This document shows positions 5,098 to 48,532 of a DNA stretch of 53,170 nt, piece after piece. The notes beneath the pieces were generated by a model, which was not told the DNA's origin, searched no databases, and worked only from the letters and a program-made list of their open reading frames with translations. The stretch is from a virus, in IMG/VR virus record IMGVR_UViG_3300009174_000006, positions 1 to 53,170 of that record. One strand, 5' to 3'. Both the position numbers and the translations under genes were made by a program. Positions within the stretch are counted from its first letter, which is position 1; each line of letters opens with the position of its first letter.

Positions 5098-5547
5098 TCA
5101 GCCGCCATGGATCTGCCCATCGTCGCCCACATAGAGATTAAACTCTCCGAGGGCTTTCGCGGCTTTGCTGAGACGCTGGCAGACGTGATAAGGACAAGGG
5201 CAGGTTTCGTCCAACGCATCCCGTTTGCTAAAATCTCTGCTCCCGATGGCAATAGCTTGCTCCTGTTCATATGCTTCGCAGGATGTCTGCGAATATTCGT
5301 CCCAGAACCCAGACCCATGGCCGTTACGATTGAGCCAGAGGCAATGGCCAGCCCGGGATTCGCTGAGACCGGATTCCGCCAGGAGCGCTTCATTCGCGGA
5401 CTGGAATGCCGTGCAATCGGCTTCCATCTTGCTGAAGGTGGCTGAGGCGATGTCGGACGGGCTGTAGTCGTGATCCAGAGGGGCGTCATTGTCATCCGTA
5501 GATGACCAAAGGGCGGCCTGGATATAAGAGCGGGTAAATGCGTTCAT
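5098..5547 (-). CDS. Hypothetical protein
   Basis: A 149-residue protein. I chose ATG 5547 because a longer frame would run into the upstream gene. The sequence combines HDYSPSDIASATFSKMEADC with AGHCLWLNRNGHGSGFWDEY and DETCPCPYHVCQRLSKAAKAL. The pattern of an early D-x-S segment, a central RNGHGSGFWD and a CPCPYH motif looks like a conserved phage protein family of unknown function. His and Cys residues could bind a metal. Confidence 0.6.
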   Translation of the reverse strand: MNAFTRSYIQAALWSSTDDNDAPLDHDYSPSDIASATFSKMEADCTAFQSANEALLAESGLSESRAGHCLWLNRNGHGSGFWDEYSQTSCEAYEQEQAIAIGSRDFSKRDALDETCPCPYHVCQRLSKAAKALGEFNLYVGDDGQIHGG

Positions 5548-6819: not shown

Positions 6820-7422
6820 TTACTGGAATGCCGGATCTTCCATGAGCACACCCGATTCGCGGACAGCTTGGCGCAGCGCTGCCATGTCTTTGAGCGTTTT
6901 CAGCCCCAGCTTGCGACGAATGGTCTGTAGGGCACGGTTTACTTGGAAGGTGGCACAATCCAGCTTTTGAGCGATCTCCCGCGGCCGGGGATAGCGCAAA
7001 CCCTGTTGCTGCAAGCGTAGCGAGAGGACATTCCGTTCAAAGGTGGGGAGAAGGGGGATAGGCTCCAGCCGGGGCGCGATAACGTCATGGCTGGCGTTTA
7101 GATGGGTATTCAGTTCCACGGCGCCTCTCTTAACGCGATCCCGGACCATTTGGACAAGGCCGCGGATAGGCTGATGCGGGAGACACGTCCACAGTCGGCA
7201 CTGTTGGCCGCAAACGTGGTGTAGGCCAGGAAGTAGCCACATTTCCAGCCCTTTGAGGATTCGCCCCAGTCGGCGGGAGTTGAGGTAAAGGTGTGGTGCG
7301 GTCGTCTGGAACATCCGCAACAGCGTTCGAGCGTCTAGGATGTCATATTGAACGTAAGGAGACTCTCCAGCGTAGCGGATGTCTTGGATTACGCGGGATG
7401 GGACGTTTTCAGTATTAAGCAT
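6820..7422 (-). CDS. Transcriptional regulator with C-terminal LuxR/sigma-4-like HTH
   Basis: A 200-residue protein starting at ATG 7422 and the first leftward gene beside the divergent control region. Residues 135-195 carry an HTH: LLPTFERNVLSLRLQQQGLR, RPREIAQKLDCATFQVNRAL, QTIRRKLGLKTLKDMAALRQ. This matches the LuxR/GerE pattern (E-R-x-V-L, EIA, V-x-x-x-L, KLGL). The N-terminal 130 residues are unfamiliar and contain His and Cys residues (LHHVCGQQCRLWTCLPHQP), possibly a metal site. The C-terminal DPAFQ tail is shared with the short HTH protein at 3282. Its position suggests an early regulator acting on the divergent promoters. A T-rich run follows the stop on the transcribed strand. Confidence 0.65.
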   Translation of the reverse strand: MLNTENVPSRVIQDIRYAGESPYVQYDILDARTLLRMFQTTAPHLYLNSRRLGRILKGLEMWLLPGLHHVCGQQCRLWTCLPHQPIRGLVQMVRDRVKRGAVELNTHLNASHDVIAPRLEPIPLLPTFERNVLSLRLQQQGLRYPRPREIAQKLDCATFQVNRALQTIRRKLGLKTLKDMAALRQAVRESGVLMEDPAFQ

Positions 7423-19399: not shown

Positions 19400-22300
19400 A
19401 TGCTCGACCTTGAAAAACTGGCGCAGGCTCGCACCGCTGGATATTCGGATGATGAAATCTACGATCATCTGACCCAGCAAGACCCCCGTTTTGCCGTGGC
19501 CAAGCAACATGGGTATTCGCTGGAGGATGTGGCCAGCCACCTCTCCCCGTTGAAGCAGGAGATGGACGCGCTCAACCGTTCGCCCGAGGCTGCCCGTATC
19601 CCGGTGGTGGAGGGAACCGAGCGCACCCGCGAGGCTTACAACCAAGCCGCGCTACCAGGTCAGCCGCTCATTGCCCCCCGCTACACGCAGGAGCAGCAGA
19701 CGGCAGATTTCAATGAATCTCGTATCACTCTGCCGCGGAATAAAGCTGAGGGGACAATGGCGGGGATCGAGAACAGCATTGCGGAGAACATTGAGGGGTT
19801 GTCTTCAACCAAGAATCTCGGCATTGCGGCGCTGGCTGCACCCCTCGGTGGAGCCCCAAAGGTGGTACAGAAACTTGCCAGCGCGGGATTCGCCTTGTTC
19901 ATGGGGTCGCAGTTACCGGAAGCGAAGGAGAAGATCGGCGCGGCCAACACCGCCAAGGAACGCGCGCAAGCCGTGACCGACTTTATTTTTGGGGCAGGTA
20001 TGGCGCTGACCGCGGCGAGCCATGGTATCGGGACTTCCACGGCGGAAGTAGGTTTGAGGAAGGCGGGGCTTTCCGGGGATGATCTGGCAAAGCTCAACAC
20101 TCAGCTTGCCCTCAAGGATATGGCTCCGAAGGAGACGACTGAGGGGAGAACTTTCCCCCACACCCCGGATGAGATCGTGGATGGGTTGAACTTTTCCAAG
20201 CAGAAATTGCGTGAAGGAATGGCTGGTCTGCCGCCTGAAAAACAGCAGCAGCGTCAAGCGTTGCTCGATACGATCGAAGGGCAGTTGTTGGAGGTTCCCC
20301 GGGAAAAAGTTACCGCGAGCGAGGAGAGAATAAAACAACAAGCAGCCACGCCACCAGCGGAAGTACCGCCAGCAGGAGATACTGCTGAAGTTCCGAGTCC
20401 ACCCGTCCAAGGTGGTCGTAGTTCGGCATTTACGCAAGCCCTGCGGGAGCAGGGGGCACCCTTGACCGCTGAGGCGGTTGAAAGTCTTCCGGTGGAAGAA
20501 CCACCAACCCCACCCGCTGCCGAGGAGGAAAAACTATCGGGGGATAAGATTCCTGCCGAGGCAGCGGGTGGGACTTCCAATATCGCTGGCCCGGCATTAC
20601 TCAGTGATGGAGAGATCGCGGTGAAGGGACAGATCGGCCAGAAGCACGCGGATTTAATCAAAAGCGCGGTGGCCACGGGCAACGTGGATGCCGTTGTGGG
20701 GGAGCGTGGGTTTCACGATGAAGAAGGCAAACCCTTGACCCGCACGGAGGCGGCAGAGCGCGCGCTGAAGACCGGACAGATTGACCAGGCGACTTTCGAT
20801 AAAGCAATGGCCCGCGATGAACGCGGACTGCACAGCGAAGATTTGATGAAAGGAGGTGATCCCGTTGAAAAAGAAAATGCCCAAAAAGTCCAAGAAGAAG
20901 GGTTACTAAAACCCGAGTCTGCCGCTGTTCAACCCGGCGAGCAGGCTTCACCTAAACCCGGTGCCAAACTCGCTGATGATCTGCGCAAACTAGGCCGGGT
21001 CAACCGCGACCCCGCGGAATCCGTGGCGCGCGAGTTGAAGTATTATTCCGACGAGGAGCGCCAGCAGTTGCAGGACCATCTCGGCACACCGGACGCGAAG
21101 CCCGACACGCTGGCCAAAGCGATCACCGGCAAGTCGAAGATCAAGGAAACCTCCCGCCCCTCCGAGTACATTGACGAACCCGGCGGTAAGGAAGGGCGGG
21201 GCCACCCCACGGCGGATGTGGCTAAGGAAGCCTTCGGTGAGGACTACACGGGCGGTCCCGGGGCCATGGGGCCGCGCGAAGCAGAGGCGATGAAGTCAGC
21301 CCAGGCCATCACCGGACTGAAGAAGGTCACCGTCCTTGTGGAGCGACTGGCCCGCGGGGAAGAACCGCTGCCGGAAGCCGAGCGGCAGAGCGAGGAGGAA
21401 GCGGTACAGCGCGCAGTGGAGACTCAGGATCGAGACCCCAAGGCGGCACAGAACTTGGTCTCGCGGATTCTCGATACCGGGGACACCGCTATTTCCCGCG
21501 ACGATGCCGCGCTGCTTTTGGTGGAACGGAACCGGGTGCTGGAGGATATGCGGCAGGCGGATGCCAAGCTCAACAACGAATCGGCATCTCCACTGGAGCG
21601 CGCCGAGGCGCAGGCCAGTTTGAAAGATCTGGAGACGCAGATTGACCGGCTGGACCGCGCGCAGAAGGAAGCGGGGTCGCAGTGGGGCCGGGTGGGTCGG
21701 ATGTACCAGCGGATGATCCGCGAGGACTACTCCCTCGAAGGCATTCAGCGGAAAATGCGCACGGCCAAAGGTGGGCCGCTCGATGAAGGGGAACGCGCGC
21801 AAGCGGAGACGGCCGCAGCCAAGATGGATGAGGCGATCAAGGCGCGGGATGCCGCGGAGAAAAAACTGGCTGAGGATTTAAAAGCCGACTACGAGAAGCA
21901 GATCGCTGGTTTGAAAGCGGAACTGGACAAAGTGCCGAAAGTGAGTCAGACGGTTTTCGACATCGCCCAGAAAATCGTGGACCGTTGGAAAGTGGATGCG
22001 GACGAAGCTCGGAAGAGTTTGCGGGAAAGACTGGGGCGCACCTCGGCCGGCGTGGACCCGACCATCGTGCTCGATGTGGCGCGTATCATGCGTTCACACG
22101 TGGGGGAGATCGGTCTCGACCTGGCGAAAGTCAGCGCGCGGGTGCTGGAGGATTTTGGTGATGCAGTCAAACCTTTCCTCAAGGACGCATGGGAAAAGAC
22201 CAAGGAGTTGATCGACAAGGAGACGATGGAGCCCGCGACGAAGGCCGCGGTGAAGAAGGGCACCAGCAACGCCCCGAAGCCGACCAAGGAGGAAATTTAC

Positions 22301-23824
22301 AACAAGCGCCGGATGACGCAGATCACGAAGCAAATCGCTGACCTGGAGGAGCGCTTGAAGACCGGCAACTTTGAAAAAGAGAAACCAGTTCCGCTGAAGA
22401 AGACCGCCGAGGTTGCGGCGGCGGAAGCCAAGCTCACGGAGGTTCGCCGCGAGGTGGACAAGGCCATCGAAAAAAAGAAATACGAACAGCTTTCACCCCA
22501 GCAGAAACTTCTCAAGGAAGCGATGAGCACCTTCCGCTCGATCACTGCCTTGAAGATCCTCGGTCACGGCAGCGTGGGCATGGTGACACATGCCGGCGGG
22601 GTGATCTTTCGCCCCACGCGCGCGGCGATTTACTGGAAGAACTTTGGCCGGCAGTTCGGCATGTGGCACGACAAAGCCTATCACGACCAACTGATCTACC
22701 GGCTGAAGAACGATCCCGAGTTCGAGACGTGGAAGAAAGCGGGGGCGTCCATTGACCCGGAGAAGACCTACACGGATTATGGTATGTACGCGCAGTGGCT
22801 CGGCAAGCTGGGGGAAAAAGGTGCACGTGGATTCGATGCGCTGAAACTGGTTCGCATGGAGATGAATAAAGCGGATTGGTCGCGTGTGCCCGAGGAAATC
22901 AAGAATGACCCCAAGCAAGCGGATGCCGCGCGCAAGTTGATCGCTGAGATCAACAACAAGGCGACAGGGGCGACACCGAAGACAAACCCGATGGGCAAGA
23001 CTCTCGAAGAGGGGTTTTACAACGTGACGAAAAATCCGGTGCTGGAAGCCGCGTTCTTCGCTCCGCGCCTCTATGCTTCGCGGTGGGGCCGCGTGCTCTT
23101 TGATCCGGTGAAGACGGCACGGACGTTGTTCGATCCGCAGTCCAGCCCGGCAGACGTTTTCGCAGCCAAGACCAGGTTGAAGAACGCCGCGGAGTTCACC
23201 GGCACCCTTGTTGCCGCACTGCTCACTAACCAGGCGATTCTCAGTGCAACGGGGAGTAAGCAGAATGTCAACCTCACTGACCCCACGAAATCGGACTGGC
23301 TGAAGTTCAAAGCCGGGGACAAGACGCTCACCGCGGATGGTGGCCTGCTCGATCCGGTACGATTGCTGGGGCAGGTGATCTGGAAAGATTTGCTCGCTGA
23401 CCGGACGGCGCAGCAGCAGTACCGCGAAGGCTCCCGTTACAAGAAAGCCGTGGACACGGTGGGCAGTTATCTCCGGGGCAAGTTGAATCCTCCGGTGGGG
23501 TTGGCTGCGGACCTGGCCACGGGCTCGGATTTTCAAGGGCGCCCGCTGCCATGGAACAAGGAGAAACCGCAGTTCAAGGGGCAAGACCCTTACACGCTGG
23601 GGGAATACGTGGTCTCCCAAGGGCCAATTCCCTTGGCCGGCGCAGCCAAAGAGATCGCGGCCGACTTGCACGCCAAAGGGTTCAAGGACCGTGAGATTCA
23701 GGTGGTCCTCAAAGCTATCGCGACTTTTGGGCTCGGCATGGCAGGCGTCCATGTGGGAGAAGATTACAGCACCCAGCCGAAATCCAGCGGTGGAGGGCCG
23801 AGTGTGAAGCTAAAACGCCGATGA
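19400..23824 (+). CDS. Large internal virion/ejection protein
   Basis: At 1474 residues this is the largest gene of the window. The first 50 residues contain two copies of a short helical motif (AGYSDDEIYDHL and HGYSLEDVASHL), which I know from N-termini of phage internal virion proteins. Residues 330-400 are Pro-rich. About 600-900 is charged coiled coil (ERAEAQASLKDLETQIDRLD and neighbouring heptads). The C-terminal 400 residues hold helical and hydrophobic segments (TALKILGHGSVGMVTHAGG, AAEFTGTLVAALLTNQAIL) that may interact with membrane. There is no peptidoglycan-hydrolase motif that I can see. By analogy with T7 gp15/gp16 it would form a channel for DNA entry. Its end overlaps the ATP-grasp gene by four bases. 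Confidence 0.65.
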   Translation: MLDLEKLAQARTAGYSDDEIYDHLTQQDPRFAVAKQHGYSLEDVASHLSPLKQEMDALNRSPEAARIPVVEGTERTREAYNQAALPGQPLIAPRYTQEQQTADFNESRITLPRNKAEGTMAGIENSIAENIEGLSSTKNLGIAALAAPLGGAPKVVQKLASAGFALFMGSQLPEAKEKIGAANTAKERAQAVTDFIFGAGMALTAASHGIGTSTAEVGLRKAGLSGDDLAKLNTQLALKDMAPKETTEGRTFPHTPDEIVDGLNFSKQKLREGMAGLPPEKQQQRQALLDTIEGQLLEVPREKVTASEERIKQQAATPPAEVPPAGDTAEVPSPPVQGGRSSAFTQALREQGAPLTAEAVESLPVEEPPTPPAAEEEKLSGDKIPAEAAGGTSNIAGPALLSDGEIAVKGQIGQKHADLIKSAVATGNVDAVVGERGFHDEEGKPLTRTEAAERALKTGQIDQATFDKAMARDERGLHSEDLMKGGDPVEKENAQKVQEEGLLKPESAAVQPGEQASPKPGAKLADDLRKLGRVNRDPAESVARELKYYSDEERQQLQDHLGTPDAKPDTLAKAITGKSKIKETSRPSEYIDEPGGKEGRGHPTADVAKEAFGEDYTGGPGAMGPREAEAMKSAQAITGLKKVTVLVERLARGEEPLPEAERQSEEEAVQRAVETQDRDPKAAQNLVSRILDTGDTAISRDDAALLLVERNRVLEDMRQADAKLNNESASPLERAEAQASLKDLETQIDRLDRAQKEAGSQWGRVGRMYQRMIREDYSLEGIQRKMRTAKGGPLDEGERAQAETAAAKMDEAIKARDAAEKKLAEDLKADYEKQIAGLKAELDKVPKVSQTVFDIAQKIVDRWKVDADEARKSLRERLGRTSAGVDPTIVLDVARIMRSHVGEIGLDLAKVSARVLEDFGDAVKPFLKDAWEKTKELIDKETMEPATKAAVKKGTSNAPKPTKEEIYNKRRMTQITKQIADLEERLKTGNFEKEKPVPLKKTAEVAAAEAKLTEVRREVDKAIEKKKYEQLSPQQKLLKEAMSTFRSITALKILGHGSVGMVTHAGGVIFRPTRAAIYWKNFGRQFGMWHDKAYHDQLIYRLKNDPEFETWKKAGASIDPEKTYTDYGMYAQWLGKLGEKGARGFDALKLVRMEMNKADWSRVPEEIKNDPKQADAARKLIAEINNKATGATPKTNPMGKTLEEGFYNVTKNPVLEAAFFAPRLYASRWGRVLFDPVKTARTLFDPQSSPADVFAAKTRLKNAAEFTGTLVAALLTNQAILSATGSKQNVNLTDPTKSDWLKFKAGDKTLTADGGLLDPVRLLGQVIWKDLLADRTAQQQYREGSRYKKAVDTVGSYLRGKLNPPVGLAADLATGSDFQGRPLPWNKEKPQFKGQDPYTLGEYVVSQGPIPLAGAAKEIAADLHAKGFKDREIQVVLKAIATFGLGMAGVHVGEDYSTQPKSSGGGPSVKLKRR

Positions 23825-42071: not shown

Positions 42072-43339
42072 TTGGCTCCTTTCAGTGCTTCCTCGGCGCG
42101 GGAGAGGGCTTCCACGATCGCGCAGTCAAGGTTGTCATCTTTGCTGCCCTCTGCGGTTACGACGGGTCTAGCACCTCGCAGAACCCCGGCACAGAACGAA
42201 AGCACTTCACGAAGTTTGTCGGTCTTATCCCGCCGTACGTATTGCTTGGAGATGTCGGGGGTGAGGGCGGCACAACGGGCGCAAGTAAACTGGTCTTCGG
42301 CCCGACAATCGCACAACTCGAAATGTGATTCGATCCAGGCATCCTTCGCCGCGATCAGCTTTTGCTGTTCCTCGGCCTGTGCTTTGAGGGCGTCACGTTC
42401 GGTGGAGAGTCGCTCGGCCAAGCTCCACACTTGTTCATAGCTTGGCTGTCCGTTTCCGGGCTCTTTGGATAAGTCCATGACCTGCTCTATCACCTTTTCG
42501 ACTTCAGCCAATTTTGGCGTTCCCTGCCGACTGAGTTCCACTATCTTTTCCGCTGCTTCCTCCACGGCTTGCCGCTCCCCGGCAGGTTGGGACTGTTCGG
42601 GTGCTAGGTTGACGTTCATTGTCATTGGCCACGGCTTAACCGACCCAGCGGCTTCCTCACGCAACCGCTCGATCTCCGCGCGATCCTTCGCGGACTGGGC
42701 GCGGGCTTCGTCGAGCTTGCGGATCAAAGCATCTACGGCCCTTGCAAGTCCTGATATATCACAGTTAGATACCGGAAATCGGCGCGTCCACACTAAGGCA
42801 TCAGCTACTTTGGCATACATGGCCCTTCCGGTGGACGCGAACTGCTCACGTTGCTCCTTCGCCTCCGCCAGTTCGATCTTCAGCGCCATCATTTGGTCAA
42901 CGGCCTGCGCTGCTTGCGTTCGGGCTTCGTCCAAGTCTTTTGTTTTCTGCCGTAAAGCTGCCTGTAGCCCTGCTTGTTTTAATGGTTGCAGCGCCTCCTT
43001 CTGCTCTTCAGTAGCGAGGGTCGTTTGGGCGTCCGCTTCGGTTAGACCTGCATATCGCTTAACCTCAGCAAGCTCCTTTCGGGCTTCTGCTAGTTCGCGC
43101 GTGGCGGTGTCGCGCTGGTCTCGGAGTTCTTCCATTTCGGCCATTGTGTATGTGTAGCCGCATCCCGGACATCTGCGTTGCCGACTCTCCAACTCCGCAA
43201 TCCGGCTGTCCTTTTCGGAGAGTTCGCGTTCAAGCGTGCGAGTAAATTCGATACTCACAATGGCGAGGCTGCGCACACCGTCCTTAGTGTGCTGCGCTAC
43301 CGTGCGGATTTCTGCATCCGTTCTTGGTGTATCGCTCAT
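42068..43339 (-). CDS. Coiled-coil protein
   Basis: A 423-residue protein from ATG 43339. It starts with SDTPRTDAEIRTVAQHTKDG, a stretch frequent in phage proteins, then long heptads (FTRTLERELSEKDSRIAELE, DQRDTATRELAEARKELAEV). A CPGCGYTYT zinc-like pair sits at 58-66 and a CDCRAEDQFTCARCA cluster at about 345-360. Such proteins are common beside phage replication genes without known role. It could act as a scaffold for replication proteins. It may have arisen together with the similar, shorter coiled-coil protein upstream. Confidence 0.6.
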   Translation of the reverse strand: MSDTPRTDAEIRTVAQHTKDGVRSLAIVSIEFTRTLERELSEKDSRIAELESRQRRCPGCGYTYTMAEMEELRDQRDTATRELAEARKELAEVKRYAGLTEADAQTTLATEEQKEALQPLKQAGLQAALRQKTKDLDEARTQAAQAVDQMMALKIELAEAKEQREQFASTGRAMYAKVADALVWTRRFPVSNCDISGLARAVDALIRKLDEARAQSAKDRAEIERLREEAAGSVKPWPMTMNVNLAPEQSQPAGERQAVEEAAEKIVELSRQGTPKLAEVEKVIEQVMDLSKEPGNGQPSYEQVWSLAERLSTERDALKAQAEEQQKLIAAKDAWIESHFELCDCRAEDQFTCARCAALTPDISKQYVRRDKTDKLREVLSFCAGVLRGARPVVTAEGSKDDNLDCAIVEALSRAEEALKGAK

Positions 43340-43800
43340 TCTGCTCCTTTTATGGCCTGCGTGATGGCTTCGCGGGCGCGGGTGCTCATAATGCGACGGG
43401 CTTGATAGTCCCCGTACATCGAGTCTTCAGCCATTTCCTGTATGGACTCCAAAGACTCGATCAGCCGCTTCCCGTCCTCGCGCGCAGCCTCCAGCGCCGT
43501 TGCAAGCTGGCACTTCTCTTGCACCAGCGCGGCGACTTGGGTTTCGTGCTCCTGCCGCGCCTTGGCGAGTTCCGTCAAAGCATTATCCCGTTCCTCCATC
43601 ATGCACTGAAGTTCGATGGCTTTGCGTGTGTTCTCTTGGTCGTGCTCCTGCTGTAGCTTGGTTAGGGCGGTGAGGATGATGGGACGGAGCATCTCCCTTT
43701 GGGTGTTAATTCTAATGGCAGCATCAATCGGTGCTCTAGAATTTACCGGATACCGCTTCTCCACCGCTTCCTGTGCGATCTGTTCGAGTGTTTTGTTCAT
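43336..43800 (-). CDS. Coiled-coil protein, short
   Basis: A 154-residue protein from ATG 43800. A TTG three codons upstream is less likely. It begins NKTLEQIAQEAVEKRYP and then forms a continuous coiled coil (EERDNALTELAKARQEHETQ, EAAREDGKRLIESLESIQEM), ending with MSTRAREAITQAIKGA. Content resembles the following larger coiled-coil protein. It directly follows the polymerase palm fragment, so it could help hold the polymerase pieces together, but that is only a guess from location. Confidence 0.55.
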   Translation of the reverse strand: MNKTLEQIAQEAVEKRYPVNSRAPIDAAIRINTQREMLRPIILTALTKLQQEHDQENTRKAIELQCMMEERDNALTELAKARQEHETQVAALVQEKCQLATALEAAREDGKRLIESLESIQEMAEDSMYGDYQARRIMSTRAREAITQAIKGAE

Positions 43801-43805
43801 AAATT

Positions 43806-44633
43806 TCAATCTTTTTTGTAGAAAGGCACCAGCGCCCCCTCAGCCGCGATCGGGAGCCCCACTGCCCACTCCGGCAAATCGGTGAGCAACCGCACAAACT
43901 CCTCCGGGGTCTGGTGGCTCTGGTGATAGGAAAGCGCCTGGTCGTGAATCAGGGCGCAGATTTCGTAACCCACGTCTTCGCAGTTCTGGGCGCCGTGGCA
44001 CATAACGTCGGCGGCGACGGCCTGGGTTGCGTTCTCGGCCCACACCCCGCCCCAGATCCCTGAGTTCCAGCCCCAGTTGACCCCTTTTAAATTCTGGTAA
44101 AAACTGACCGCGGTGGTGCCCTCGAATTTCCCCGGCACGATCTTGGGCCACGGGTAGGCCAGCTTCCTGCCGCTGGGCAGACGCATCAACAGGAACTCGA
44201 TTTCCCCGGTGGTGATGCACTTGAAAGAAATGTGCTTGCCGGCGGCGAATACCTCTCCCTTGTGGAGCACCGCAGCCTTGGCCGCTTCATCGAGTTTCTC
44301 CCAGAATTTGACGACGCAATTGTGTTTCTTGCGCCAGGCATTGATCGCCTTGAACTCCAACCCCTCGGGGAGATCGTAGTTGCCCGGTGGCTTTTTGCAG
44401 GTGATGCGGAACTTCGGGGCACCGAGCCCAAACCCCGCACCGAGAATCAGCCCCTTGCCAACAAAGCGTTGGGGGAATTTGTCCACCTCGTGCTCCGCGA
44501 TGCCGTAGACGAACGCAGCCATGCGCTTGTAACGATCCACGCCTTGCCGGTATTCCTCCAAGGCATCTTCCTGCCCGGCGAGCCAGCACACGATGCGGGC
44601 TTCGATGGCTGCGTAGTCAGCGTCGAGGATCAT
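43806..44633 (-). CDS. DNA polymerase I family, fragment 3: palm and fingers
   Basis: A 275-residue protein. The start at ATG 44633 forms an ATGA overlap with the PP-loop gene. Two more in-frame ATGs at 44642 and 44657 are possible. It holds polymerase motif A, ILDADYAAIEAR (catalytic D6). Motif B is RFVGKGLILGAGFGLGA (R56, K60, F68), the O-helix that binds dNTP. ENATQAVAADVM and motif C, CALIHDQAL (D230), complete the site. Motif C normally reads HDE; here it is HDQ. There is no exonuclease or N-terminal palm in this gene. Those parts are encoded upstream at 46481-47338 and 45400-45753. The three must join non-covalently to form an active enzyme. Confidence 0.88.
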   Translation of the reverse strand: MILDADYAAIEARIVCWLAGQEDALEEYRQGVDRYKRMAAFVYGIAEHEVDKFPQRFVGKGLILGAGFGLGAPKFRITCKKPPGNYDLPEGLEFKAINAWRKKHNCVVKFWEKLDEAAKAAVLHKGEVFAAGKHISFKCITTGEIEFLLMRLPSGRKLAYPWPKIVPGKFEGTTAVSFYQNLKGVNWGWNSGIWGGVWAENATQAVAADVMCHGAQNCEDVGYEICALIHDQALSYHQSHQTPEEFVRLLTDLPEWAVGLPIAAEGALVPFYKKD

Positions 44634-45403
44634 ACGAAGCATCCTCCGCTCCCACATCCGCGCTCCGTCTGAGCCTCAGTTGGGGAGAACTTCACCTCGT
44701 TGATTGGAACACACGATTTATGGAGAAAAGCGTTGGGGTCTTCCAGTTGCATCTCCCACTCCAAGAAAATTGCTTTTTTAAAATCCTCCGGTGTCTCTTC
44801 TTTAGATTGTACCCACTCGGCGTCTGTCTTGTTCGGGCACATCCAGCAGGCGGAACGCGGGGGTCGGTCCCAACCGAAGTCGATCACCCCCTGAATAGAT
44901 TCTTCACGTGTGGAGGGAACGTCGTGGACCAGAGGAAAGCGGATATACCCGCGAGAGTATTCTTGGGTCAGCATCATCCGATTTACCCTCCGGGCTTCAT
45001 CGGTGGAGAAGCAAATCCAAGTGCGCTGCTCTTTGGTCGGGATGCCCAACTCACGGACAAATCGCTCTCTCACCCGGCGTTTCCATTTGTGAGAGCAAAA
45101 GTTGGTCAACTTTCCGACTTCTCCCGTTTGGTTGGTGAACGCCGGAATCATCAACGTGGTTCCGAACCTACCTGAGAACAGATCAATGCTGGTGTAATCG
45201 CTCTTTTTCACTCGATGGATTTTTACCCCCACCGAAGCGAGCCCTGGAACAACGAACTTTTCGTGGTAGGCCCACACCTCAGAGTTCTCTCGTTCGGTGT
45301 CCACGATCACTGCAACATCTGGTTTTGGGAGTCTCCCTTGGATGATTAAAACTGAGGTATAGGCGCTTTGTGTTCCACCACCGCTGGAGAAGATGTCTTT
45401 CAT
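44630..45403 (-). CDS. PP-loop ATPase, PAPS-reductase-like, inserted in the polymerase cluster
   Basis: A 257-residue protein from ATG 45403 (ATGA overlap with polymerase fragment 2). MKDIFSSGGGTQSAYTSVLI carries the PP-loop SGGGTQS that binds ATP pyrophosphate. Cysteines follow: FCSHKWKRR, RSACWMCPNK and the C-terminal ERGCGSGGCFV, a pattern known in phage PAPS-reductase-like proteins. Family members adenylate a substrate for sulfur or amine transfer. DndC and queuosine-type enzymes are relatives, but I cannot tell which chemistry is used. Base composition is less GC-rich than the polymerase fragments. It separates polymerase fragments 2 and 3. Confidence 0.82.
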   Translation of the reverse strand: MKDIFSSGGGTQSAYTSVLIIQGRLPKPDVAVIVDTERENSEVWAYHEKFVVPGLASVGVKIHRVKKSDYTSIDLFSGRFGTTLMIPAFTNQTGEVGKLTNFCSHKWKRRVRERFVRELGIPTKEQRTWICFSTDEARRVNRMMLTQEYSRGYIRFPLVHDVPSTREESIQGVIDFGWDRPPRSACWMCPNKTDAEWVQSKEETPEDFKKAIFLEWEMQLEDPNAFLHKSCVPINEVKFSPTEAQTERGCGSGGCFV

Positions 45404-45753
45404 AAATCGGTGTCCTCCACGAAATGCCGGATGCACGATGAGATGACTTCCAGCGGTGGCCCATAGACAATCTCCAGCATCTCCCGGCTGATGCCCGCGC
45501 AGATGTCGCGATACGCCGCTTCGGTGTCCATCGTCGGGTCTGGACGCTTCATATTCTGAAACTGAACCAGGGAGTTCGTGGAGCGCCCGGTGGTGGCTCC
45601 GTGGTGGTTCAGCATCCCACGGATGCGATTATCCCCCGGCCCCACACACGCTAGCATGGTGTCCACCTTCTTGATCGCGGCGTAGCTGACGCTGGCGCGG
45701 AGAGTGAGCGCAGTGCGGACGAGTTCCAGTTGTTGAGGTGTGGGTGGGGTCAT
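45400..45753 (-). CDS. DNA polymerase I family, fragment 2: thumb/palm linker
   Basis: A 117-residue protein from ATG 45753, with ATGA overlaps on both sides. On its own it looks orphan, but RASVSYAAIKKVDTMLACVG, then RIRGMLNHHGATTGRSTNSL and VQFQNMKRP are the conserved part of family A polymerases between thumb and motif A (R-x-R...HGA.TGR.S...QN..R). YGPPLEVISSCIRHFVED is the segment that comes shortly before motif A. It ends exactly where fragment 3 starts with ILDADYAAIEAR. The conserved GATTGR and QN residues bind template-primer. Fragment 1 ends just upstream in the thumb, so no conserved piece seems lost. Confidence 0.85.
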   Translation of the reverse strand: MTPPTPQQLELVRTALTLRASVSYAAIKKVDTMLACVGPGDNRIRGMLNHHGATTGRSTNSLVQFQNMKRPDPTMDTEAAYRDICAGISREMLEIVYGPPLEVISSCIRHFVEDTDL

Positions 45754-46484
45754 AGCAACGCCTTCAACTCTGCTTCTCGGATACGCTTCTGCGCGACAAT
45801 GAAATAGTCCAGGTCACGCTCTATCCCGATGAAGTTTCTACCCGTGTGGACACAGGCGACCCCGGTAGTGCCGCTGCCCATCGTGTTATCAAGCACCGTG
45901 TCACCTTCGTTGGTGTAGGTGCGGATGAGGTATTCCATGAGGGCAACGGGCTTCTGGGTGGGGTGGAGTCCTACTTCACAATTAAACTTCTGCCATGAAG
46001 ATGGGACGCGCTTTGTTGTTAGTTGCCCCTGCTGTGCCCCGATGGCACCATAGTTCTCGGTATTTGTTTCATGCTTAATACCATATTTGATCCGATCAAC
46101 ACCTCCTCCTGTTCGGTTCTGCATCTGTTTATTATAAACCCACTTCCCCCGTGAGAACACCAATACACTTTCGTGTTCTTTCATCGGTTCTCGAACGGTA
46201 TTAACAAAATTGCTGCCTCGGTTTTTAATCCAAATCCACTCGTGCTTAAACAACTCGGGTTTGCTCATCACAAGGAGTGAGGTGAACGGTTGGCTCGCTG
46301 TCAACACCACCGCACCTCGGCAGACTCGGGCGTATTCCTGCCAAAGTAAATCGAGGGGGATCATCGAATCCCACTTATTCTGTGTGGTTCCGTATGGCAG
46401 GTCACAGATCACCGCGTTTGCCGCCCCGTTCGGCATATCCTTCATCCGATCCAAGCAATCTCCGAACAGCAGTTTCACGCTCAT
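45750..46484 (-). CDS. DNA methyltransferase, inserted in the polymerase cluster
   Basis: A 244-residue protein from ATG 46484 (ATGA overlap with polymerase fragment 1). Motif IV is CDLPYGTTQNKWDS near residue 28, a DPPY variant with Leu, and motif I is LDNTMGSGTTGVACVHTGRN near residue 200, with HPTQKPVALMEYLIR before it. This beta-type order fits N6-adenine or N4-cytosine methylation of phage DNA. It lies as a complete gene between the exonuclease and middle polymerase fragments. Its GC content is visibly lower (about 48% in 46141-46200) than in the flanking fragment (about 58% in 46861-46920), which suggests an insertion from elsewhere. It has no nuclease partner. Confidence 0.88.
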   Translation of the reverse strand: MSVKLLFGDCLDRMKDMPNGAANAVICDLPYGTTQNKWDSMIPLDLLWQEYARVCRGAVVLTASQPFTSLLVMSKPELFKHEWIWIKNRGSNFVNTVREPMKEHESVLVFSRGKWVYNKQMQNRTGGGVDRIKYGIKHETNTENYGAIGAQQGQLTTKRVPSSWQKFNCEVGLHPTQKPVALMEYLIRTYTNEGDTVLDNTMGSGTTGVACVHTGRNFIGIERDLDYFIVAQKRIREAELKALL

Positions 46485-47338
46485 ACCCCCTCATCCAAAA
46501 ACGCTTCCACCGTCGCCGCCTGCAAATCCCCATACGGATACCCGTTGGCCTGTGCCCAGGCCAGCACCTTTGCCCCCTGCGTCACTTCGAACCCGGTCAA
46601 CGTTTTGAACTTCTCCCCGACGATCGCGGTCTCCTCATCAATCAGCTTTTGCGCGTGACGCAGCGCGGCGATATTCACCGTCACCCCGCGTTCGTTGATA
46701 ATCTCATGGAGGGTGTAGTTGGCGTCGTTGAGGGGATCACCGAAGTAAGCGAGGCGGCGAGCCACCTCTTGCTCGGCGCGCACGTCCTGACGGCAGTATT
46801 CCACGAAGCGCGCGAAGTCCTCGGGGTCATCCTCGGGCTGGATGCGATGCACAGGCATCCCCGCGGGGTTTTTCTTGGTGGGCTTCTTCGCCGGCTGCAT
46901 CATCGAGAACTTGCGGATCAACCGTTTGCCGGCCGCATCCTTCACCACTGTCCCTAGGAACTCACTGAGCTTCTCCAGCTTGGCTGGGAGTGCCGCGCGC
47001 CGGGCCAGTGACATCGTGCAGCGGAAGCGGCTGATGTGGGGTGGCTGGATGCCCCAGGTCTTCCACATCAGCGCTTTGCTCATCGCGTACTCGAACTGGG
47101 CGTTGTGGGCGTAGATAAGGATTTCCGGGTTTTCGAGGGCGTCCCAGTAACGGTCAAAAGACGCAAGTTGTTCCTCAGGCATCCCCTTCCACCATGCTGT
47201 GGGCTCCTCATCCCCCAGCGCCATCGCTGCGCAGAGGATCTCGGTAGACGGGTCGAACGCATACCGATATGCACCTACCTCGGTGATGTCCGCGAGGCTG
47301 AAGGACTCGTAGTCGAGATGGAGGTGGGGAGGGGGCAT
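46481..47338 (-). CDS. DNA polymerase I family, fragment 1: 3'-5' exonuclease and thumb start
   Basis: A 285-residue protein from ATG 47338. Exo motif I is HLDYESFS (D9, E11), motif II is IYAHNAQFEYAM (N79, E83 where Asp is usual), and motif III is EYCRQDVRAE (Y181, D185). After the exonuclease domain comes TLHEIINERGVTVNIAALRH and GAKVLAWAQANGYPYGDLQA, ATVEAFLDEGV, the first part of the thumb in family A phage polymerases, where the protein stops. It lacks palm and fingers. The rest follows in fragments 2 and 3 further down the same operon. The fragment is thus a proofreading subunit of a split replicative polymerase. Confidence 0.88.
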   Translation of the reverse strand: MPPPHLHLDYESFSLADITEVGAYRYAFDPSTEILCAAMALGDEEPTAWWKGMPEEQLASFDRYWDALENPEILIYAHNAQFEYAMSKALMWKTWGIQPPHISRFRCTMSLARRAALPAKLEKLSEFLGTVVKDAAGKRLIRKFSMMQPAKKPTKKNPAGMPVHRIQPEDDPEDFARFVEYCRQDVRAEQEVARRLAYFGDPLNDANYTLHEIINERGVTVNIAALRHAQKLIDEETAIVGEKFKTLTGFEVTQGAKVLAWAQANGYPYGDLQAATVEAFLDEGV

Positions 47339-47499
47339 CAGCGTGGCTGAGGTGCAACCTTCAGAGTCACCACTTCACCCCTCGGCTGCGAGGGGATGCA
47401 GAGACAGGTTCTCCCCGCCTCCACATCCCGCGCGCAGAAGTGGCAAGGCTTGACCTTGGGCCGCGGGTCGCGGTCAACGTAGTAGGTGTCGTAGCTCAT
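47338..47499 (-). CDS. Small Cys-rich hypothetical protein
   Basis: A 53-residue protein from ATG 47499 (ATGA overlap with the upstream small gene). KPCHFCARDVEAGRTCLCIP gives a CxxC and CxC pair typical of a tiny zinc ribbon. The stop overlaps the polymerase fragment 1 start by one base (TGATG). A longer frame starts upstream but would cross the neighbouring gene. Confidence 0.55.
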   Translation of the reverse strand: MSYDTYYVDRDPRPKVKPCHFCARDVEAGRTCLCIPSQPRGEVVTLKVAPQPR

Positions 47500-47639
47500 G
47501 TGGCCGCGTAGAATGCTACGGCTTCGGGGTAGCTTCTGCATTCTTGTTCCCTGTCACCGGACACGCAGATGACGACTCCCGAGGAGTTCTTGAGAAACCA
47601 CTCGCGCGCTTCTTCCAAAGAATTGACATGCTCGATCAT
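47496..47639 (-). CDS. Tiny hypothetical protein
   Basis: A 47-residue open frame from ATG 47639: MIEHVNSLEEAREWFLKNSS, then GVVICVSGDREQECRSYPEA and a short end. It looks like a small helix-strand-helix unit. It fits exactly between SSB and the Cys-rich protein, ending in an ATGA overlap, so I take it as real although it is short. Confidence 0.5.
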   Translation of the reverse strand: MIEHVNSLEEAREWFLKNSSGVVICVSGDREQECRSYPEAVAFYAAT

Positions 47640-47642
47640 ACC

Positions 47643-48242
47643 TTAAAACTCGTCCATGGCATCCTGGGCTTTGCGGTTGCCGCGGCGGGGGGTTTCCTCG
47701 CTGGCGCCTTCCGCAGGGAGAGCATCAAACTCGTTCTCCACGTTGACCGGGACAGCCCCGCCGAGGCTTTCGCCATCCTTGACGAACTGGATTGCGCGGA
47801 GTTCCGCGTTCACCCCTTTGCCCCATTTGTTGTTCTGCACCCACAGCCGGATGGTGGCGTTGACGTAACAGCCGGCGTAGATTTTCCCATCCTCAGCGGT
47901 GAGCGGCGACAGGTCACGATCCACCACCGGGGGGCGCGTCTTGCGGGAAGCGGAGATGAAGAACACCCCGTCGCCGTAGCCCTCGGTGTCGAGCTTTTCG
48001 TTGCCATCGTGAAGGCAGCGATGCTTCAGCGGGACTTTCTTCTTGAACTCGTCCAGGGCGAGGCGCTCGATTAGGGCTTCGATCTGGTCGATCAGTTTGC
48101 CGTGGTGCTCGATGTCGAGCAGGAGGTTGGCCGAGAACTTCGGCTCACTGCCCTCCATGGCATAGGCTTCAAATAGGTGTGGGAAACTGAGCCGAACATT
48201 CGGCAGTTTCACGATTGCGGGGTCAGTGGCTTTGGTGGTCAT
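47643..48242 (-). CDS. DUF2815-type single-stranded DNA-binding protein
   Basis: A 199-residue protein from ATG 48242. IVKLPNVRLSFPHLFEAYAM and PKFSANLLLDIEHHGKLIDQ at the start, RDLSPLTAEDGKIYAGCYVN and ATIRLWVQNNKWGKGVNAEL later, are the DUF2815 pattern, an OB-fold SSB related to T7 gp2.5 in role. The C-terminus is acidic (AQDAMDEF), as in other SSBs, for partner contact. It coats ssDNA during replication and stands directly before the polymerase genes. The leader is A/C-rich without Shine-Dalgarno. Confidence 0.85.
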   Translation of the reverse strand: MTTKATDPAIVKLPNVRLSFPHLFEAYAMEGSEPKFSANLLLDIEHHGKLIDQIEALIERLALDEFKKKVPLKHRCLHDGNEKLDTEGYGDGVFFISASRKTRPPVVDRDLSPLTAEDGKIYAGCYVNATIRLWVQNNKWGKGVNAELRAIQFVKDGESLGGAVPVNVENEFDALPAEGASEETPRRGNRKAQDAMDEF

Positions 48243-48271
48243 GTGTATTTTGTTTTTGGTTGAGGTGAAAA

Positions 48272-48532
48272 TTACTTCCAGGCTGGGTTCATTTCAGCAG
48301 CCCGGGCGTCGAGGATGGCGCGTCGTTCGAGTTTAGCTGCTTGCTTCTTTCCGACATGAGGCGTGCCCCAAGTCCAGCGCCGGCGAAAGATGCTTTTGGT
48401 GATGCCGTCGCGGGTGCGACGGAACTTGCGGCGCTCTTTGGGTTTCTCGGGGAGCGAGGCGAACGCAGTGGATTCGTGAGCGCCAAGTGAGAGGCAAGCA
48501 GCGAGGAAAGGAAGGAATCGGATTGGTTTCAT
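48272..48532 (-). CDS. Small basic hypothetical protein with signal-like N-terminus
   Basis: An 86-residue protein from ATG 48532 (ATGA overlap). MKPIRFLPFLAACLSLGAHE resembles a signal peptide, followed by a very basic part (KPKERRKFRRTRDGITKS, IFRRRWTWG). Either it is exported or the N-terminus is merely hydrophobic. No family recognised. Confidence 0.45.
   Translation of the reverse strand: MKPIRFLPFLAACLSLGAHESTAFASLPEKPKERRKFRRTRDGITKSIFRRRWTWGTPHVGKKQAAKLERRAILDARAAEMNPAWK

Follow-up and report, generated by a model that had tools for sequence, protein, structure and literature searches.

A family A DNA polymerase of a phage, encoded in three pieces with a DNA methyltransferase gene and a PP-loop gene at its two breaks

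Phage enzymes encoded in pieces are known from a few systems, with which we compare here a family A DNA polymerase carried by the IMG/VR virus record IMGVR_UViG_3300009174_000006 (53,170 bases, analysed in its entirety and called the window below), where the enzyme is encoded as three separate polypeptides, F1, F2 and F3, with two unrelated genes between them. In Aeromonas phages 25 and 44RR the replicative polymerase, gene 43, is likewise encoded in separate chains, 43A and 43B, with an insert between them, and the gp43A and gp43B of phage 25 co-purify and have polymerase activity (PMC2988022). In contrast to the window, however, these are family B enzymes (PolB) in two pieces, and what separates the pieces is either a seg homing endonuclease or a spacer that is not translated. 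Essential phage enzymes split into chains that reassemble, as the conservation of the window enzyme suggests for it too, also include NrdA of Aeromonas phage Aeh1, split by mobE and fully functional, and the topoisomerase of T4, split by mobA (PMC2988022), although these are other enzymes and their inserts are homing endonucleases. By analogy, gp43A/B of phage 25, together with Aeh1 NrdA, can be regarded as the closest experimental precedents for an enzyme of several chains.

A family A case is provided by the OM43 phages MEP401 and MEP402 and related metagenomic genomes, whose polymerase is encoded by two open reading frames (ORFs), with a small gene of unknown function between those of MEP401 and an intron proposed by the authors (PMC10580990). 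The likeness to the window extends to a break at the same turn ahead of motif A and to a small foreign gene in the gap, while the differences are that the enzyme belongs to a distant family A branch, that it is in two pieces and that the usual slot ORFs, of 73-88 amino acids (aa), are unrelated to the genes embedded in the window. Polymerases of the HMO-2011 type have a foreign segment (DnaJ-type, CXXCXGXG) between the exonuclease and polymerase regions, around the region of the F1/F2 break, but this is an in-frame insert in a single chain (PMC9038755). Broken phage polymerases are already known, one of them a family A enzyme in two ORFs cut at this very turn, a position that the accessible text of PMC10580990 does not discuss, whereas no published three-piece phage polymerase was found in the open-access literature. 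Three points appear to be new: a polymerase in three pieces with two enzyme genes embedded, the repeated and lasting use of the pre-motif-A turn as a slot in two distant branches, and the replacement over time of the genes that this slot contains.

The five genes of the locus lie on the minus strand of the window in the transcription order F1, methyltransferase, F2, PP-loop gene and F3, and the features are as follows.

46481-47338, minus strand: F1, polymerase fragment of 285 aa, with the 3'-5' exonuclease (DYESFS, NAQFE, YCRQDV) and the start of the thumb
46481-46484, minus strand: ATGA overlap of the F1 stop and the methyltransferase start
45750-46484, minus strand: N6/N4-type DNA methyltransferase of 244 aa, between F1 and F2 (PF01555, N6_N4_Mtase, E=5.6e-26)
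45750-45753, minus strand: ATGA overlap of the methyltransferase stop and the F2 start, with GAAGG upstream at 45761-45765
45400-45753, minus strand: F2, polymerase fragment of 117 aa, with the remaining thumb and the initial palm (RIRGML..GATTGRSTN..QFQN..SSCIRHFV)
45400-45403, minus strand: ATGA overlap of the F2 stop and the PP-loop start, with GGAGG upstream at 45414-45418
44630-45403, minus strand: PAPS-reductase-like PP-loop protein of 257 aa, occupying the palm slot that separates F2 from F3 (phrog_424, E=1.4e-23)
44630-44633, minus strand: ATGA overlap of the PP-loop stop and the F3 start, with GGAGG upstream at 44643-44647
43806-44633, minus strand: F3, polymerase fragment of 275 aa, with the catalytic palm and fingers, comprising motif A (D6), motif B (R56 and K60) and motif C (H230-D231)

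The five ORFs, their coordinates and the four exact ATGA overlaps had been reported in a first-pass annotation made from the sequence alone, and all were found in the sequence; the methyltransferase gene that it placed between F1 and F2 and the PP-loop gene that it placed between F2 and F3 agree with the PF01555 and phrog_424 matches. The three fragments occupy collinear and non-overlapping positions on a single PHROGs profile, phrog_17, with F1 at 671-887 (E=1.6e-28), F2 at 954-991 (E=2.8e-4) and F3 at 1008-1226 (E=2.4e-31). Pfam, by comparison, returned nothing for F1 or F2 and only a match below the cut-off for F3 (PF00476, DNA_pol_A, E=2e-6), and such pieces are therefore easily missed by annotators.

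The fragments were aligned to intact polymerases, a check that the annotation had proposed, and F1, F2 and F3 were found to abut along unbroken phage family A polymerases from end to end with no block missing or repeated. Their summed length (285 + 117 + 275 = 677 aa) compares with 676 aa in the intact sister enzyme L024 (L-numbers are our labels for related loci and contigs). The first break interrupts the window sequence as ...VEAFLDEGV* / MTPPTPQQLELVRTALTLRAS, a stretch that is continuous in the close relative L002 (...VETFLEDESGGYVPCVVREALALRAS), and the second as ...SSCIRHFVEDTDL* / MILDADYAAIEAR, which in L024 is unbroken (SLCIRHFVQDSRPINDADYAAIEAR). Exonuclease motifs I-III of F1 align with those of intact relatives, and the motif A, B and C residues of F3 listed above are invariant in an alignment of 19 sequences. 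A complete collinear set of phage family A domains, exonuclease and polymerase, is present across the three fragments, and the alignment to intact relatives supports the earlier statement that each family A region occurs once and in order over about 677 residues. The annotation had also named an unaligned gap, a duplicated block or a second polymerase as signs of decayed remnants. Neither a gap nor a duplication was seen between the fragments, and a search of this record for polymerase families A and B gave no further DNA_pol_A match and no DNA_pol_B match.

The intact L024 enzyme was modelled with AlphaFold (AF2), giving a mean predicted local distance difference test (pLDDT) score of 90.7 and a fold that resembles the Klenow, Bst and phage Pol I structures (Foldseek), and the breaks were mapped onto this model. 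Break 1 (F1/F2) falls in a loop between two helices (residues 283-290) at which model confidence dips, while break 2 (F2/F3) falls in a five-residue turn (395-399) between a helix (382-393) and the motif A strand (400-405), five residues ahead of the motif A aspartate. In a profile alignment break 2 maps to the turn in AFIAEEGWLLVALDYSQIE of Taq, and the same alignment suggests that break 1 lies in the thumb, near the thumb tip. F3 alone, modelled from its own alignment, gave a pLDDT of 94.5 and matched family A polymerases; its first strand comprises residues 2-7, and the catalytic aspartate is therefore residue 6 of a separate chain. The earlier placing of the second break inside the palm, just before motif A, thus stands, but the palm holds for that break only, the first being in a loop of the thumb region.

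All three fragments are under purifying selection. The ratio of nonsynonymous to synonymous substitution rates (dN/dS) against L002 was 0.109 for F1 and 0.075 for both F2 and F3, these being rough ratios given a dS of about 1.4-1.6, and the fragments are 80%, 86% and 87% identical, respectively, to the corresponding parts of L002. As L002 has the palm break only, the ratios show that a polymerase with its F2 and F3 parts separated is under constraint, and they cannot date the F1/F2 break. Shine-Dalgarno-like sequences were found ahead of the internal starts, namely GGAGG 9-10 nucleotides upstream of the PP-loop gene and of F3, GAAGG for F2 and GAGG for the methyltransferase. An alternative in-frame ATG for F3 lies upstream at 44657, but the start within the ATGA, with GGAGG 9 nucleotides upstream, seems the better candidate. 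The ATGA overlaps were also considered as a signature of insertion, and this was rejected, as they occur at 10 of the 18 gene junctions examined in the block and at 6 of the 14 junctions that do not involve the polymerase; they are therefore a habit of the operon and no special evidence about the polymerase.

We consider it likely, from the sequence comparisons, the models and the analogy with phage 25 and Aeh1, that F1, F2 and F3 form a functional family A polymerase of three non-covalently assembled chains. F1 would supply the proofreading exonuclease and the start of the thumb and F2 the remaining thumb and the initial palm, while the catalytic palm and the fingers would come from F3, the three folding together. 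The five genes stand head to tail in what looks like a single operon-like block, and the chains would be made together, because the internal starts each have a Shine-Dalgarno-like sequence and an ATGA overlap. Alignment, mapping of the breaks onto the fold, purifying selection and the relatives agree with the initial claim that a single family A polymerase is encoded in three parts, interspersed with two unrelated genes. Some points nevertheless weigh against a working three-chain enzyme. The three-piece state is known from one metagenomic contig, and F1 and F2 are fused in its closest relative, L002; much of the purifying selection on F1 and F2 could be older than the insertion of the methyltransferase gene; and the record may be incomplete, with a further polymerase encoded outside the contig.

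Relatives of the polymerase were collected from viral_contigs; a search of genome_contigs with F2 gave no relative. In L002, L003 and L020, F1 and F2 are one chain and the enzyme is broken at the same pre-motif-A site as in the window, the slots being filled by ORFs of 83, 128 and about 75 aa, respectively, with ATGA at both ends. These ORFs are unrelated to each other and to the PP-loop gene, and no family was found for them in Pfam or PHROGs; a common origin of all slot genes was rejected, the slot proteins having no significant mutual similarity. The other relatives examined, L024 included, are unbroken at the palm site, and a pattern scan for ATGA plus motif A yielded no further split member of the window's lineage, its other matches being intact read-throughs or unrelated. 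In trees the four broken members and the intact L024 form one fully supported group, within which the order is not resolved, and a single origin of the palm break in this group would be the simplest, though not a proven, reading. All four palm-broken members (window F2, L002, L003 and L020) have TGRS in the block before QN, where the intact relatives shown mostly have TGRW.

Several further insertions and irregularities were seen in the polymerases of these relatives. The intact polymerase of L035 has an in-frame zinc-ribbon-like insert (CPHCGGTG...CSKC, 7100-7240) exactly at the turn of the F2/F3 break, as does that of L038, and judging from these two sequences the pre-motif-A turn also tolerates in-frame inserts. 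Where the window has its F1/F2 break, L003 carries a zinc-ribbon-like insert (CKIC...CPSC, 5150-5260) that resembles the DnaJ-type insert of HMO-2011 polymerases. Insertions that appear intein-like by eye are present in L020 (5160-6083, between motifs A and B) and, before motif C, in L016 (6690-7592) and L019 (6609-7486), and an apparent frameshift lies in the exonuclease region of L020 (3657-3670), near the position of F1 residue 40.

The same turn is broken in the branch of the cultured phage MEP401, where gp13 ends ...LFLSRYGE* and gp15 begins MILNADAKALEW. A scan with the C-terminal piece of MEP401 kept 80 contigs, of which the 76 with the N-terminal piece present could be scored; all 76 are broken at the equivalent turn and none is fused, although many are near-copies of one another and they do not count as 76 independent cases. 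In a script tally of these 76 slots, an ORF of 60 aa or more is present in 41, the halves adjoin or overlap in 14, a gap of 1-60 nucleotides separates them in 8, and the other 13 have a longer gap in which no ORF of that size was scored, although L094 and L096, both among these 13, showed a 76-aa ORF on other inspection. The halves are adjacent in the cultured Alcaligenes phage QDWS535, whereas in the complete genome ct2os315 (L158, 6923-12392) they are 3.6 kb apart, with seven annotated genes between them that include a C5 cytosine methyltransferase. The slot of phage ctOsX528 (L154, 2282-2488) contains a gene for a type II (R67-like) dihydrofolate reductase (PF06442, E=2.7e-22), and the slot ORF of L145 looks HNH-like by eye (CPIMKQ...SIDRIDPSKGY...NIRVIS), which was not confirmed by Pfam. 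Apparent one-base frameshifts, in opposite directions, were also seen in the A-run of the codons for DAK-ALEW of motif A in L154 (2501-2530) and L145 (3002-3030), and may be due to sequencing error or to another cause.

On the tree the window lies outside the MEP401 clade, with long, fully supported branches and intact members on both sides (BLASTP E=0.013), and the neighbours of that clade are HMO-2011 and HTVC033P, both with intact enzymes. Given this distance between the two clades and the intact neighbours, two origins at one turn are the simplest account. Thus the claim that the arrangement is without precedent held in part: the three-piece state and the break at the methyltransferase gene were seen in the window only, but the palm break is common to L002, L003, L020 and a distant clade.

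For the three-chain enzyme favoured above, these comparisons suggest a history in which the palm break was probably already present in the common ancestor of the small phage clade. The palm turn, once it had become a gene boundary, would have allowed genes to be exchanged in and out, the PP-loop gene being the one now in the window, and the second break would have followed at a later time, when a methyltransferase gene, in the window's lineage only, entered the flexible loop between thumb helices. A plausible route is that an intervening mobile gene breaks the polymerase and that gene exchange at the new boundary follows; we infer this route and the order of events, like the assembly and activity of the three chains, from the comparisons given here. 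With somewhat less assurance, though we think it rather probable, the pre-motif-A turn may be seen as a recurrent permissive slot for cargo, broken independently at least twice and long kept as a functional multi-chain enzyme while unrelated genes were swapped through it, the window representing a heterotrimer with a second slot. The slot genes concerned are the PP-loop gene, the type II dihydrofolate reductase, the C5 methyltransferase and small unknown proteins.

Neither of the genes inserted in the window is a homing endonuclease, one encoding a DNA methyltransferase and the other a PAPS-reductase-like protein (PF01555 and phrog_424). Among the relatives compared, a methyltransferase at the F1/F2 site is found in the window only, and a homolog is absent from the records of L002, L003, L020 and L024. 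In L035-L037 a 64% identical homolog stands directly downstream of an intact polymerase with the ends overlapping, while relatives of the methyltransferase elsewhere have only weak polymerase matches nearby. The PP-loop protein has a weak match to SspD; its gene is absent from the seven related records searched, and no close relative of the protein was found in viral_contigs.

An alternative that we regard as unlikely is that F2 and F3 alone make up a functional two-chain core, and that F1, which retains a thumb stump, acts on its own as a 3'-5' exonuclease and no longer joins them stably. It fits with the presence of the entire exonuclease domain within F1, with the position of break 1 in a low-confidence loop and with the F2/F3 break being common to relatives where the F1/F2 break is in the window only. 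However, F1 continues for about 80 residues of palm and thumb past the exonuclease domain, nearly reaching F2, and this extension is under purifying selection, while F2, of only 117 aa, would be left without part of the thumb. We find it still harder to accept that the fragments are decayed remnants of a polymerase gene broken by insertions and dying, in a phage replicated by the host polymerase. Fragmentation into three is typical of a decaying gene, and the F1/F2 break is in this contig only, yet neither break shows a frameshift, an internal stop or a loss of residues, the catalytic residues are intact, dN/dS is low in the three pieces, Shine-Dalgarno-like sequences stand at the starts, and the break at the palm turn has been retained in four genomes here and in the 76 MEP401-type contigs.

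An assembly artefact, in which a chimeric contig joined the methyltransferase or the PP-loop gene into the polymerase, is very improbable, for although the evidence is the assembly of a single metagenomic contig, both inserts end exactly at operon-type stop/start overlaps with nothing duplicated or lost, and three other contigs independently have the palm break. That an intron or intein joins the pieces after transcription or translation into a single-chain enzyme can be almost wholly discounted, since, in spite of the group I introns known in phage polymerase genes, the one suggested for MEP401 by the authors of PMC10580990 and the intein-like insertions seen by eye in L016, L019 and L020, Rfam gave no intron at E<=1 in 43000-48500 of the window and none at the gathering threshold in L002, L003, L020, L056 or L145, complete genes fill the inserts from ATGA to ATGA, the ends of F1, F2 and F3 show no splicing motifs by eye, and 14 MEP401-type contigs have adjacent or overlapping halves in different frames with no room for an intron.

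With one cut five residues before the catalytic aspartate and another in the thumb, a processive enzyme has here been severely fragmented in nature. If the three chains assemble, they would provide breakpoints already tested by evolution for the design of split polymerases, and would illustrate how an essential gene comes to accept passenger genes. Because the break recurs in two distant branches, this can be tested, as several natural two-chain enzymes, a three-chain one and an unbroken one (L024) are open to direct comparison.

Two other genes of the window may be mentioned. A second DNA methyltransferase gene lies at 1453-2553, towards the opposite end of the record (phrog_67, E=9e-78), and is weakly similar to the one embedded in the polymerase, and an ORF of 1474 aa at 19400-23824 has a weak DarB-like antirestriction match (phrog_10089, E=8e-6).

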